Of a stretch of 64,000 bases of DNA, positions 41,876 to 57,240 are shown piece after piece. The stretch is from Myxococcales bacterium (GTDB lineage Bacteria; Myxococcota_A; UBA9042), in NCBI GenBank assembly GCA_009692425.1, contig SHZF01000016.1:1-64000 (forward strand). Reading direction: 5' to 3'. The notes under the pieces are model-generated. The model saw nothing but the letters and a program-made list of their open reading frames with translations. It made no database searches and had not been told where the DNA came from. A program made the position numbers and the translations under genes. Each line of letters opens with the position of its first letter. Position 1 is the first letter of the stretch.

Positions 41876-42196
41876 CTACCCCTCGCCCTTGCTGCGGAAG
41901 TCCGCCATCTCCGCCCCCTTGGGCCCGAACGTGCCTTCAGCCAACTTCACGACCCGCAGCCGCTTGGCCCGCGCCGCCCGCAGCCGGGCCTGGATGGTCG
42001 CGGTCTTGGCCTTGAGCTGACCCTTGAGCTGCTCCTGCTCGACGTTGAGCGCCTGCAGTTCGGCTTGCAGCGCGCTGACGTCCTTGCTGAGTTGCGCGGC
42101 CGCGGGCGGCAGGGCCTTGGCGTGCTTCTTGGCGCCGGCAATGATGAAACTGAGGTCTTGGATCAAGAACGCCGTGGATTTATTGGCGGGAGGCAT
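41876..42196 (-). CDS. Small coiled-coil protein, 106 residues
   Basis: The ATG at 42196 (MPPANKSTAFLIQDL) has AGGAG 7 bases upstream, fixing the start; the frame continues upstream only as a shadow. The middle, from about 35 to 75 (AAAQLSKDVSALQAELQALNVEQEQLKGQLKAKTATIQARL), has a clear leucine heptad pattern, followed by a basic segment (RAARAKRLRVV) and a conserved-looking end (GTFGPKGAEMADFRSKGEG). No family recognised. It is preceded by an array of seven 20-22-bp repeats that may control it. Convergent with prs; 91 bp between them hold no clear terminator. Confidence 0.75.
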   Translation of the reverse strand: MPPANKSTAFLIQDLSFIIAGAKKHAKALPPAAAQLSKDVSALQAELQALNVEQEQLKGQLKAKTATIQARLRAARAKRLRVVKLAEGTFGPKGAEMADFRSKGEG

Positions 42197-42210
42197 GGAT
42201 GTGCTCCTGA

Positions 42211-42347
42211 GACGTGCGGATTTGGTGAGAGTCGCACGGATGGGAAAATGCGCCGTGCGGAGTCTGGCTGTCAATGGTGCGGAGTTGGGCAAAGACGTGC
42301 AGATGGGACCGAGGAAGTGCGGATGGCGTCGCGCGCCGTGCGGATTG
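42211..42347 (-). promoter_or_regulatory. Iteron-like operator array: seven GTGCGGA-type sites on one helical face
   Basis: On the plus strand, the heptamer GTGCGGA (usually followed by T or G) starts at 42214, 42255, 42277, 42317 and 42338, with variants GCACGGA at 42234 and GTGCAGA at 42297. Spacings of 20-22 bp average two helical turns, so all seven lie on one DNA face. The array begins 18 bp upstream of the coiled-coil gene's ATG, so it spans its likely promoter. The non-uniform spacing argues against a protein-coding repeat. The binding factor is unknown. Confidence 0.6.
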
Positions 42348-50824: not shown

Positions 50825-53800
50825 ATGTTCGAGACAAACAAGCTGGCGGGGATTCTGGGGGCGACGCTGCTGGCGTCCGTCGCGTGTTCTGCGGAGCACA
50901 GCAACGGCGAAGTGGAGGAGCCCGAGGAGTGCGACGATGGCAACGCGGTCGACACCGACGCCTGCCGCAACGACGGCACCAAGGCGCGTTGCGGGGACGG
51001 CGTGCAGCGCAAGGACAAGGACTCGCTCGAAGAGTGCGACCTCGCCAGCAAGAACGACGACCATGGCGAGTGCACGAAGACCTGCAAGCTGAAGCGCTGC
51101 GGCGATGGGTTCGCGCAGCCTGGCGAGGAGTGCGAAGACGGCAACCTCGACAGCAACGACCTGTGCCTGCCGAACTGCAAGCTCGCAAAGTGCGGGGACG
51201 GCCAGTTCCGCGTCGGCGTCGAGGCCTGCGACGACGGCAACGCGGCGAACGACGACGGCTGTACGACGACGTGCAAGCTCGCCACCTGCGGCGACGCCTT
51301 CACCCAGCCGGGCGAGGCGTGCGACGACGGCAACACGTCAAACGGCGACACCTGCCTCACGACGTGCGTCAAGGCCTCGTGCGGCGACGGCGCGGTCAAC
51401 GTGCCCAACGGGGTCACCGACGCGTGCGACGACGGCAACAAGAATCCTTACGACGCCTGCACGAACGTGTGCGAGGTGGCCGTGTGCGGCGACAAGCTGG
51501 TGCGGCAGGGCGTCGAAGCGTGCGATGACGGCAACAAGGACGACACCGACGCGTGTACGACGGCGTGCAAGCTGCCGACCTGCGGCGACGGCTTCGTGCA
51601 AAAAGGGGAAGCGTGCGACGACGCCAACCAGGACACGCACGACAGCTGCCTGCCGACCTGCATCGTCGCGACTTGCGGCGACGCGGTCGTGCAACTTGCC
51701 GGAAACGCGTCAGAACAGTGCGACGACGGCAACCAGACGGGCAACGACGACTGCACGCCGGTGTGCAAGGCGAACGTGTGCGGCGACGGCTTCCTCTACG
51801 TGGGCGTCGAGGCCTGCGACGACGGCAACAAGGACGATGCCGACGGCTGCACGACGAAGTGCAAGGCCGCGACCTGCGGCGACGGCTTCGTGCAGAGCCC
51901 CGCGGGCGCCGGAGGGGCGTCAGAGGAGTGTGATGACGGCAACAAGTCGAACCAGGACGCGTGCCTGAACACGTGCCTCAAGGCGAAGTGCGGCGACGGC
52001 CAGAAGGGCCCGGGCGAAGGCTGCGACGACGGCAACGCCAACCAGAACGACGCGTGCACGAACGAGTGCAAGCTCGCGAAGTGCGGCGACGGCCTCGTGC
52101 AGCAGGGCGTCGAACTGTGCGACGACGGCAACGAGAAAGACGGCGACGGCTGCACGGCACAGTGCAAGCCGGCCAGTTGCGGCGACGCGCAGGTTCAGCC
52201 GGGCGAGCAGTGCGACGACGGCAACAAGTCGAACAACGACGAGTGCCTGAACACGTGCGTCAAGGCCGGGTGCGGCGACGGCTTCAAGGGCGCCGCCGAG
52301 CAGTGCGACGACGGCAACTCCAACAATCAGGACGCGTGCCTGAACGCGTGCCTGCTGGCGATATGCGGCGACGGCTTCGCGCGGACCGGTGTCGAACAGT
52401 GCGACGACGGCAACAAGAGCAACAACGACGCCTGCACGCTCGGCTGCAAGCTTGCGGCATGCGGCGACGGCTTCGTGCAGCCCGGCGAGCAGTGCGACGA
52501 CACGAACGCGAGCCCCTACGACGGCTGCCTGCCGACGTGCGTGCTGGCGACGTGCGGCGACGGCCTCGTGAACGCGCCGAAGGGCGTCACCGAGTCGTGC
52601 GACGACGGCAACCAGGACGACACCGACGCCTGCCTGAAGTCCTGCGTGCCCGCGAAGTGCGGCGACGGCGTGACGTGGAAGGGCAAGGAAGGCTGCGACG
52701 ACGCCGACAAGGACGACACCAACGGCTGCACTGGCGCCTGCGAGGTGGCCAAGTGCGGTGACGGCATCAAGCAGAAAGGCGAAGCCTGCGACGACGGCAA
52801 CAAGGACGAGACGGATGGCTGCCTCGGCTCGTGTGTCGGGGCGAGCTGCGGCGACGGGTTTGCCCAGAAAGGCAAGGAAGCCTGCGACGATGGCAACGCC
52901 GACGATACGGACGCCTGCCTGAAGACGTGCGAGTTGGCGAAGTGCGGCGACAGCGTCCTGCACATCGGTGTCGAGGCCTGCGACGACGGCAACCCCGACG
53001 ACACCGACGGCTGCACGAAGACGTGCAAGCTGGGCACGTGCGGCGACGGGATCGTGCAAAAGGGCGAGGACTGCGACGACGGCAATAACACGAACACCGA
53101 CAAGTGCCTGAACACGTGTATCAAGGCGTCGTGTGGCGACGGCTACCTGCTGGGCTCCGGCGGCGGGGCGACGCCGGAAGCGTGCGACGATGGCAACTTC
53201 TCCAACAGCGACGGCTGCCTCGATACGTGCGTCAAGGCGAAGTGCGGCGACGGCGTGGTGCAGGTCGGCGTCGAAGGCTGCGACGATGCCAATCCGACGC
53301 AGACCGACGGCTGCCTCAACACGTGCGTGGTGGCCAAGTGCGGCGACGGCGTCGTGAAAGCGGGCGTCGAGGGGTGCGACGATGGCAACACGGCGAACAC
53401 GGATGCCTGCCTCAACACGTGCGTCAAGGCGGCGTGCGGCGACGGCTTCGTCGAACCGACGGCCGAGAAGTGCGACGACGCCAACGCGTCGAATGGTGAC
53501 GCGTGCGTGGCGGACTGCCAACTCGCCAAGTGCGGCGATGGTTTCGTGCAGGCCGGCGCCGAGCCGTGCGACGACGGCAACCCCGACGACACCGACGCGT
53601 GCCTGAAGACGTGCAAGGTCGCCGTGTGCGGCGACGGCTTCGCCCAGGCTGGCGTCGAAGCGTGCGACGACGGCAACCAGGACACCGGAGACGCCTGCCT
53701 GCCGGGTTGCGTCGCAGCGTCGTGCAGCGACGGCTTCGTGTTTGCCGGCGCCGAGCAGTGCGACGACGGCAATCAGGTGTCGGGCGACTTCTGCGGGCCG

Positions 53801-54205
53801 AAGTGCGCCTTCGAGTGCAGCCTAGGCGACGCCCAGAAGCAGCTGGGCAAATCATGCTACGTCGGCTTCACGACGGCGCTGTCGTGGAGCCAGGCATCGG
53901 CAGCGTGCACGGTGCTCGGCGCGCACCTGGTCGCGGTGCAGTCCAAGGAAGAGAACGACGCGGTCAAGACACTGCTGGGCGCCCTCGGCTCGGCGTGGAT
54001 CGGCCTGACGGACCAGTTCTCCGAAGGCACGTTCGTGTGGCAGGTGGCCCCTTCGAAGTTCCTCGCCGCCCTGTTCACCGCGTGGGCCCAAACCCAGCCG
54101 GACAACGACCCGGACGGCGAAGCGGACTGCGCCGGCATCAGCGCGTCGGGCTGGAGCGACCACAAGTGCTCCGACAAGAAGGCCTATGTTTGCGAACATG
54201 ATTGA
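50825..54205 (+). CDS. Giant DUF4215 Cys-rich repeat lipoprotein with C-type lectin domain
   Basis: 1,126 residues from the ATG at 50825 (AGGAG about 11 bases upstream). A signal peptide ends LLASVAC, so Cys21 is the probable lipid site. From about residue 34 to 990 there are about 30 copies of the roughly 30-residue DUF4215/'Myxococcus cysteine-rich' repeat, with core CGDG...GVEACDDGN...DACxxxCxxAxC; this forms a rigid, disulfide-rich, probably Ca-binding rod. The last 130 residues are a C-type lectin fold: [32 protein letters not shown], then QPDN with a following Glu, and GWSDHKC...YVC. QPD is the galactose-type Ca/sugar motif. It overlaps the next gene by 8 bp. Confidence 0.9.
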
Positions 54206-57200
54206 ACGCGCGCGCTTCGGATGCTTCGCGGTGACGGTTCTAACGCTGGCGGCGTGCAGCGAGCCGGACAAGGCCGTCGTCATCGGGTGCGGGACCGGGG
54301 TGATCGACCCTGGCGAGGCCTGCGACGACGGCAACCCCGACGACCACGACCTCTGCACCAACGCGTGCACGGTGGCCGCGTGCGGTGACGGTGTCGTCCG
54401 GTTGTTCGAGGGCGTCACGCCGCCTGCTGCCAAGGGCGCGCCGGCGTCGGCACCGTTCATCCCCGAGGGCTGCGACGACGCCGACCTCGACGACACCGAC
54501 GGGTGCACGGCAGCGTGCAATCCGGCGCGGTGCGGCGACGGCAAGGTCTGGAAGGACCACGAAGCCTGTGACGACGGCAACGCCAACGCTGCGGACGGGT
54601 GCAGCACGGCCTGCAAGCTGCCGACGTGCGGCGATGGCATCGTGCAAGCGGGCGAGGCCTGCGACGACGCCAACGCAGTCAACACCGACGCCTGCCGCTC
54701 GAACTGCCTCGTGGCCACGTGCGGCGATGCCGAAGTGCACGTGGGCACGGAAGCCTGCGACGACGGCAATCCCGAGCCCGGCGATGCCTGCACGAACGGT
54801 TGCCAACTGGCGGCGTGCGGCGACGGCATCGTGCGGCTCGGCGTCGAGGCGTGCGACGACAAGAACCTGATCGACAACGACGGCTGCACGAACACGTGCA
54901 AGCTGCCGACTTGCGGCGACGGCCTGGTGCAGAAGGGCGAGGCGTGCGACGACGCCAACGCGAACCCGAACGACGCCTGTCTGCCCGCGTGCGTGGTGCC
55001 ACGCTGCGGCGATGGCGTGGTCCAGACGGGTGTCGAAGCGTGCGACGACGGCAACCTCGTCGATACTGACGCGTGCCGGGCCTCGTGCCAGAAGGCAACG
55101 TGTGGCGACGGCGTTGTGCTGGCCGGCGTCGAAGCCTGCGACGATGGCGACAAGGACGACACGGACGGGTGCACGGCCCAGTGCAAAGAACCGTCGTGCG
55201 GCGACGGCGCGGTGCAGAAGGGCGAGGCATGCGACGACGGCAACGTGTCCGACGCCGACGGTTGCCTGTCGACGTGCTTGGCCGCCTCGTGCGGCGACGG
55301 TGTGTTGAACGTGCCCAGCGGGGCCAAGGAGACGTGCGACGACGGCAATGCGAGCGCGAACGACGCCTGCAAGCCGAATTGCACGGCGAACACGTGCGGC
55401 GACGGCATCGTGCTTGTCGGAGTTGAAGCGTGCGACGACGGCAACAAGGACGACGGCGACGGCTGCACGCATGAGTGCAAGCTGGCGACCTGCGGTGACG
55501 GCCTCGTGCAGCAGGGCGAAGCGTGCGACGACGGCAATGCCAACGACGGCGACGCGTGCCTCTCGACGTGCGTGAGTTCGAACTGCGGCGACGGCGTCGT
55601 GAACGCATCGAACGGCACGCCCCCGGTCGGACCGGCGGAAGCGTGCGATGACGCGAATGCCGACGATTCCGACGCGTGCCTTTCGATCTGCCAGCCGGCC
55701 AAGTGTGGCGACGGCATTCTGTGGGCCGGCGTCGAGGCATGCGACGACGGCAACGGCAACGACAACGACGCCTGCTCGAACTCGTGCAAGCCGGCTGGCT
55801 GCGGCGACGCCAAGCTTCAGCCCGGCGAGCAGTGTGACGACGGCAACCTCGACGCCGGCGACGCCTGCACGAACAGTTGCCTGACCGCGCTGTGCGGCGA
55901 CGGCGTGGTCGGCGCGCCTAACGGTGCCACGGAGCAGTGCGACGATGGCAACGCCGAACCCAGCGACGCGTGCACCGCAGGCTGCAAGATTGCGGTGTGC
56001 GGCGACAAGGTCCTCTACGTCGGCGTCGAGGCCTGCGACGACGGCAATGGCGACGACACCGACGGCTGCACGAAGGGCTGCAAGCTCGCCACATGCGGCG
56101 ACAATGTCGTGCAGAAGGCGGGTGCAGCCGGCGGCGCGTCCGAGGCGTGCGACGACGGCAACCTATCAGACGCCGACGCGTGCCTGTCAACCTGCGTGCT
56201 GGCCAGTTGCGGCGACGGCAAGGTGCTCGCGGGCGGCGAGACGTGCGACGACGGCAACGGCAACCCCAACGACGCGTGCAAGAACGATTGCAGCGCGGCG
56301 CAATGTGGCGACGGCGTCCTCTGGGCCGGCAAGGAAGCGTGCGACGACGGGAACACGAAGGGCGGCGACGCCTGCAGCGCGACATGTACGCTGCCCGCGT
56401 GCGGCAACGGCAAGCTCGACATTGGCGAGGGCTGCGATGACGGCAACAAGTCGAACGCCGATGCGTGCCTGACCACCTGCCAGAAGGCGAGCTGCGGCGA
56501 TGGCTTCGTGCAACTCCAGGGCGGAGCGACCGAGGCGTGCGACGATGGCAACACGAACGCCACCGACGCCTGCCGCTCGGACTGCAAGGCCGCAACGTGC
56601 GGCGACGGCGTCGTGTGGCTGGGCCAGGAGGCGTGTGACGACGGCAACGGCAAGGAAGGCGACGGCTGCTCCGCGCAATGCACGCTGCCTGCGTGCGGTG
56701 ACGGGCTCGTGCAGGCGGGCGAGGGCTGCGACGACGGCAACGCGTCCAACGCCGACGCGTGCCTCAAGACGTGTCAGGTGGCGCAGTGCGGCGATGGGTT
56801 CCTGTGGCAAGGCAAGGAGAACTGTGACGACGCGAACCTCGTGCCAGGCGACGGCTGCTCGCCCCTGTGCCAAGGCGGCGTGTGCGGCGACGGCGTGCTC
56901 GACCCCGGCGAGACCTGCGACGACGCCAACGTCGCGAATACGGACGGCTGCCTGTCGACGTGCACACCTGCCAGTTGCGGCGACAGCTTCGTCCAGGCCG
57001 GCAAGGAGTCGTGCGACGACGGCAACCTGTCGAACCAGGACGCGTGCCTCGTCGGCTGCAAGGCTGCCACGTGCGGCGATGGCGTCGTGCACGTCGGCGT
57101 CGAGCCGTGCGACGACGGCAACGCGGTGCAGACCGACGCCTGCCTGACCGGCTGCAAGAAGGCGTTCTGCGGCGACGGCGTCAAGTGGGCCGGCGTCGAG

Positions 57201-57240
57201 GCGTGCGACGACGCAAACTCCGACAACACCGACGGCTGCC
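50915..57240 (+). repeat. About 60 tandem DUF4215-coding repeats across two genes
   Basis: A degenerate 85-110-bp unit recurs through both lipoprotein genes, anchored by TGCGACGACGGCAAC (Cys-Asp-Asp-Gly-Asn) and a TGCGGCGACGG core (Cys-Gly-Asp-Gly). Roughly 30 copies occur in each gene. Copies differ at the codon and residue level, so the array looks old, not freshly amplified. It also produces long open frames in other phases. Confidence 0.85.

Follow-up and report, generated by a model that had tools for sequence, protein, structure and literature searches.

What protein reads a row of regularly phased heptamers that lies immediately upstream of a small gene in a Myxococcota genome, and does the row belong to that gene? 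We addressed this question for the window (i.e., the whole 64-kb stretch of DNA that was analyzed) and for the relatives of the neighboring gene in other genomes.

A Phased Array Upstream of a Coiled-Coil Gene

An earlier note on this DNA had described seven GTGCGGA-type sites spaced by 20–22 bp (about 20.7 bp on average) directly upstream of a coiled-coil gene, and this description proved accurate. Exact copies occur on the plus strand at five sites (42214, 42255, 42277, 42317, and 42338), and the two others are degenerate variants (42234, GCACGGA; 42297, GTGCAGA). The heptamers occupy positions 42214–42344 with successive spacings of 20, 21, 22, 20, 20, and 21 bp (mean 20.7), and 17 bp separate the end of the last core from the ATG. 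Read on the strand of the gene (minus), the motif corresponds to the octamer [A/C]TCCGCAC, and the spacers are unrelated to each other. The features of the locus are as follows:

42338..42345, minus strand: gene-distal site of the array (site 1), ATCCGCAC in gene orientation
42317..42324, minus strand: array site 2, ATCCGCAC
42297..42304, minus strand: array site 3, degenerate, ATCTGCAC
42277..42284, minus strand: array site 4, CTCCGCAC
42255..42262, minus strand: array site 5, CTCCGCAC
42245..42274, minus strand: weak putative promoter within the array, read by eye (TTGACA at 42269–42274, 18 bp, CATTTT at 42245–42250)
42234..42241, minus strand: array site 6, degenerate, ATCCGTGC
42214..42221, minus strand: gene-proximal site of the array (site 7), ATCCGCAC
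42204..42208, minus strand: ribosome-binding-site-like AGGAG, seen in the sequence after the last core
41876..42196, minus strand: gene encoding a basic 106-aa coiled-coil protein (supported by homologues, purifying selection, and a structure model), which is the candidate array reader

The core columns of the array contain approximately 0.9–2.7 bits of information, while most spacer columns are near the sampling null (0.33 ± 0.24), which a few bases directly following the core exceed slightly. Taken singly, GTGCGGA is not enriched in the 64-kb window (17 occurrences observed and 22.9 expected). The phased-chain score at position 42214 was the highest of the whole 64 kb (19.2) and was reached by none of 150 shuffles of the window (shuffle maxima of 11.2 ± 1.1). 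A motif-chain search of the gene's upstream 240 bp gave z = 7.5 relative to shuffles, and the excess of the array (21.5) was higher than in all 120 random 240-bp control pieces drawn from the window's own genome and related genomes (control maximum of 17.4). Across the 4.94-Mb assembly, the pair GTGCGGA-N12-16-GTGCGGA was found inside this array only, and the reversed control pattern gave 0 matches. The idea that such arrays arise at equal frequency in shuffled sequences fails, since neither the shuffles, nor the random pieces, nor the genome scan gave a comparable array. The special feature of the window array is its phasing and not the abundance of the heptamer. A coding-heptad reading, in which 21 bp would correspond to seven codons of a coiled coil, was rejected for this array because the spacing varies by 1 bp.

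The genes on the minus strand are ordered etfB-etfA-mnmE-array-coiled-coil gene, facing prs, and the neighbors checked on both sides encode MnmE, PRPP synthase, argininosuccinate synthase (ArgG), EtfA, EtfB, and a deaminase. A consensus promoter scan found no strong promoter in this region and did not pick up the TTGACA-N18-CATTTT pair. TTGACA is conserved beside the arrays of paralogues, and in one clade the array sits just upstream of a conserved TTGACA promoter. The etfA-mnmE synteny is maintained in 15 relatives from the same bacterial family. At this position, the cassette seems to be accessory, because prs and the coiled-coil gene trail mnmE in this genome only, as compared over up to 1.5 kb past mnmE and with the mnmE of some relatives close to contig ends.

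The Coiled-Coil Protein and Its Family

The window protein (MPPANKSTAFLIQ...FRSKGEG; 106 residues) has a pI of 10.3 and is predicted to be all-helical. Its structure model (pLDDT 87) consists of a helix (residues 8–24), an LP turn, and a single 60-residue helix (residues 31–90), whose C-terminal half is rich in Arg and Lys and precedes a conserved AExxFG...FR motif. We found no helix-turn-helix (HTH), no RHH, and no other known DNA-binding fold in this model, and its comparison with the PDB returned no similar solved structure. PDB profile and fold matches to the protein were dismissed as coiled-coil noise. Scans against Pfam, NCBIfam, and PHROGs yielded sub-threshold coiled-coil matches only, with no curated family and no DNA-binding domain. 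All the array-bearing members of the family are basic (pI of 8.9–10.3), and G002, a divergent member without an array, has a pI of 6.7. Related gene pairs of the family are under purifying selection (dN/dS of 0.13–0.18).

Homology searches indicate that the protein belongs to a small, patchy, and multi-copy family found mainly in one Myxococcota family. Relatives were detected in 7 of the 22 genomes of the same family as the window genome, and a single genome can contain as many as five full copies. Further relatives are present in two other Myxococcota, in Riemerella, and on a Treponema plasmid. A profile search of contigs with a subset alignment returned four loci, all in two uncultured Myxococcales MAGs, and the phages and viral contigs searched contained no relatives of the window protein. 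These are freshwater bacteria, whose assignment to Myxococcota follows the naming of such MAGs as uncultured Myxococcales.

The family also appears remotely related in sequence to NCBIfam NF052641 ("PQLLE family protein"), which seems to be a doubled form of a unit of about 105 aa. One relative (G251) scored 28 bits against this model (E = 1e-6), which is below the 80-bit cut-off. Like the window family, PQLLE-like genes can adjoin exact 21-bp arrays: four of them do so, with 7–12 copies on the 3′ side of the gene. However, the homology of these genes to the window protein is weak and based on low-scoring profile matches, and the NF052641 model matched neither the window protein nor any sequence of its genome. 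The family name carries no function, and our literature search returned nothing on "PQLLE".

Arrays beside Other Family Members

Most copies of the family have their own array adjoining the gene, with a period maintained at about 21 bp and a different core. When pooled over 12 upstream regions, shared 6-mers presented sharp peaks at lags of 21, 42, and 63 (z of 15–17 relative to shuffles). Five arrays were individually strong (z of 6.0–7.5), each exceeding 120 of 120 random controls, and they carry five different cores that vary by clade: ATCCGCAC in the window, CGATT in a paralogue of the same genome, GCCGGCCG in L004, TCACTACT in L012, and CTCACTTG in L014. Other arrays were weak alone in the chain test (G005, G016a, G016d/e, and G009b). 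Within each of two groups with a weaker chain test, G005/G009a and G016d/G016e/G009b, the cores are common and match the relatedness of the proteins. Clear tandem arrays were also found beside distant members, in G251 (L053, 42-bp units) and in G045 (L054, 21-bp units directly 3′ of the stop codon). No array was detected beside the G002, G021c, and Riemerella members, and G021b is cut by the end of a contig.

On the plasmid pTS2 of Treponema saccharophilum, about 10 units of TTTAGGAA-N4-TCCTAA, one per 21 bp, precede the homologue. These units are palindromic (L076:1597-1790; NZ_AP025290.1), and the cassette is flanked by two near-identical gene starts (ATGGGAGACGCATTGG), which gives the impression of an insertion into an ankyrin-repeat gene array. 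In the relatives, arrays were found on either side of the gene, including downstream, which argues against a purely promoter-bound role. Altogether, these sequence comparisons extend the earlier note: the array travels with the adjacent gene, and the arrays that recur in the gene family share a period but differ in sequence. Our literature search found no description of arrays of 21-bp repeats associated with coiled-coil proteins or present in myxobacteria.

Co-inheritance and Background Arrays

Two pairs of cassettes located at different genomic places are homologous over the gene and the array only (L042/L043, 475 bp at 86% identity; L048/L049, 473 bp at 82%). In both pairs, the homology starts at the stop codon of the gene and spans the array, and the flanks are unrelated. 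A comparison of the neighborhoods revealed no third gene common to the loci besides the gene and the array, with the exception of ordinary synteny between L044 and L048 and of one broad cluster of proteins that are large, repetitive, or made of common domains. We also identified array-only copies. One of them (L048:4081-4300), which carries the GGGCG core of the G016d/e cassettes, lies between convergent genes 4 kb from G016e. Another (G016:C176:9000-9150; L167, L177) presents the 21-bp unit of the G016b cassette on a different contig and is flanked by convergent genes with no coiled-coil gene.

We then estimated how frequently ~21-bp arrays occur. The gene-centered loci (355 kb) were picked for holding the gene, such that the rest of each locus served as a ranking control, and tiles covering 1.07 Mb of G000, G016, and G058 were used as an independent control with the same peak threshold. 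Among the 18 strongest distinct peaks of the gene-centered loci, approximately 15 adjoin a family or PQLLE-like gene. The tiles contained about ten peaks above the threshold besides one known array, which amounts to one background peak per 107 kb or so. Some of these peaks are coding, and five correspond to non-coding arrays with periods of about 21, 22, or 42 bp that have no recognized family gene alongside (L113, L108, L116, L120, and L137). Two of the five (L113:40-170 in G000:C10 and L108:5660-5755 in G000:C5) are tandem arrays of ~21–22 bp located right after stop codons in the window's own genome. The association of array and gene is thus a strong enrichment and is not exclusive, since a few non-coding arrays exist without a family gene.

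A Candidate Protein/Array Module

The coiled-coil gene is the only gene that we found inherited with the array, and we therefore consider it probable that the two form a self-contained, two-part module whose product binds its own array. The small basic protein would be the reader and the array its cognate cis-acting site. The conserved cores, random spacers, and 1-bp jitter around two helical turns point to a sequence-reading protein lined up on one face of the DNA, and the different cores within one genome imply different readers. With cores of 6–8 bp every two turns, protomers or dimers would sit side by side on one face, and bound neighbors might touch through the coiled coil to form a cooperative nucleoprotein row. 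The product would then autoregulate or build a local nucleoprotein structure. Negative autoregulation would be the most likely immediate effect in the window, since the sites extend over the probable promoter and as far as the ribosome-binding site. The downstream arrays, together with the array-only copies found between convergent genes, suggest that simple repression is complemented by a structural role, which could consist of coating, bridging, or anchoring DNA locally. Among the interpretations raised by the earlier note, a same-face cooperative array of the regulator type remains the best reading, whereas a replication-origin iteron and a general nucleoid-protein site were not borne out, the latter because copies of the same genome differ in core.

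More tentatively, these cassettes may represent "self-addressed" nucleoprotein modules of a class not described before, in which a small basic coiled coil without a classical DNA-binding fold reads its own 21-bp-phased array and the protein–array pairs diversify into orthogonal sets that coexist on one chromosome, with modules in at least two phyla and the protein family in three. If the neighboring protein does read its array, each locus would be a natural and compact protein–DNA pair with its own address. Relatives with different cores would offer a ready set to study how a bare coiled coil recognizes DNA and how its specificity shifts. This would likewise contribute a minimal system that coats or organizes chromosome segments, and it would give a function to an uncharacterized group of proteins that may include NCBI's PQLLE family.

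An alternative is that the array is the operator of another transcription factor or nucleoid protein, such that the coiled-coil gene is merely regulated and has an unrelated function (e.g., as a scaffold). This would be consistent with a protein without recognizable DNA-binding domain, with further ~21-bp arrays existing without the gene, and with the clade whose array precedes a conserved TTGACA promoter, as activator sites would. We nevertheless judge this explanation unlikely: the different cores of same-genome copies would call for a separate factor each, yet no regulator gene is common to the loci, the gene and the array move together with nothing else, and arrays can be downstream of the gene.

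A still less probable scenario is that of 21-bp minisatellites, selfish or neutral, which occupy intergenic gaps and became associated with the gene by hitch-hiking rather than recognition. Several arrays are indeed near-perfect tandem repeats (10.8 copies in L069 and 8.2 in L063), and the array-only copies between convergent genes (L048:4081, L167) also fit this scenario. However, the arrays of the window, L004, L010, and L014 have conserved cores with largely random spacers whose lengths vary by 1–2 bp, and slippage alone is insufficient to keep the core while randomizing the spacers and varying their length. In addition, the period of about 21 bp recurs in unrelated sequences and in another phylum, and arrays adjoin the family far above the background frequency.

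Very little probability remains for an array that is transcribed and acts as RNA, either as a TIGR/CRISPR-like guide array or as a structured leader. Although the combination of conserved cores, variable spacers, and an adjacent small helical protein is reminiscent of TIGR-Tas (PMC12045711), no Nop domain was found among the Pfam matches of the family, and the inconstant units of about 21 bp differ from those that give 36-nt tigRNAs (PMC12045711). The window array presents no fold signal (z = 0.15). The Treponema array folds strongly (z = −6.65) owing to its palindromic units, and neither the window array nor that of L046 has such a fold. The only Rfam match was sub-threshold and inside the gene, with none in the array, and the array of one clade lies upstream of a conserved promoter. 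Finally, a replication-origin iteron or a plasmid-type partition centromere left in the chromosome is the most improbable explanation of all: the architecture is similar to single-protein partition modules such as StbA/stbDRs (PMC3098194) and one family member is on a Treponema plasmid, but the window copy adjoins housekeeping genes (MnmE, PRPP synthase, argininosuccinate synthase, and ETF) with no Rep initiator gene among the neighbors checked, the neighborhoods compared have no recurrent Rep, ParA, ParM, or TubZ partner, and a search of 72,556 plasmids found no member beyond Treponema and Riemerella.

Comparison with Known Systems

The proposed module resembles StbA-stbDR and pSK1 Par without a recognizable DNA-binding domain or partition partner. 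In plasmid R388, StbA is associated with a direct-repeat array around its own promoter, and the StbB motor is unnecessary for stability (PMC3098194). The Par protein of pSK1, a "type IV" single-protein partition system, contains a winged HTH (PMC5016525, PMC11500499). As in these systems, the cassette combines one protein gene with an adjacent repeat array, to which its product would bind as a cis-acting site. However, the stbDRs are 9-bp repeats with 2-bp gaps, i.e., an 11-bp period (PMC3098194), in contrast to about 21 bp in the cassette arrays, and the winged HTH of pSK1 Par has no counterpart in the model of the window protein. The cassettes also differ in being mostly chromosomal-looking and multi-copy, with a core of their own in each copy. 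We do not assign the family to StbA or pSK1 Par because the window protein presents no recognizable DNA-binding fold.

The type Ib omega/parS system likewise has rows of iterons at promoters, where the centromere-binding protein is also a repressor, and one protein belonging to a multi-gene partition system reads several iteron blocks per plasmid (PMC5016525). Unlike omega/parS, the cassette arrays have variable gaps of about 13 bp and no shared partner gene. TIGR-Tas arrays, as those of the cassettes, are located upstream or downstream of one gene and their repeats differ between loci, with dual-repeat units whose spacers keep one length at a given locus (PMC12045711), but the cassettes have a single core spaced by 20–22 bp with no constant dual-repeat unit, no Nop domain, and, for the window array, no RNA structure.

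Other Repeats and Remnants

Several additional elements were observed near the cassettes. A decayed C-terminal fragment of a cassette gene (L052:7675-7745; G016:C100:18675) lies 13 kb from the intact G016b copy. The peak at L045:7521 corresponds to a REP-like 31-bp repeat and not to the GTACCC array. REP-like palindromic repeats (GCGCTTCGCGC) with a period of 31–69 bp were found near two cassettes (L045:7548-7710 and L042:7675-7894). In the window itself, positions 51176–57213 consist of repeated tandem units of 93–96 bp encoding Cys-rich repeats of the CDDGN type, which we take to be the Myxococcus cysteine-rich repeat.
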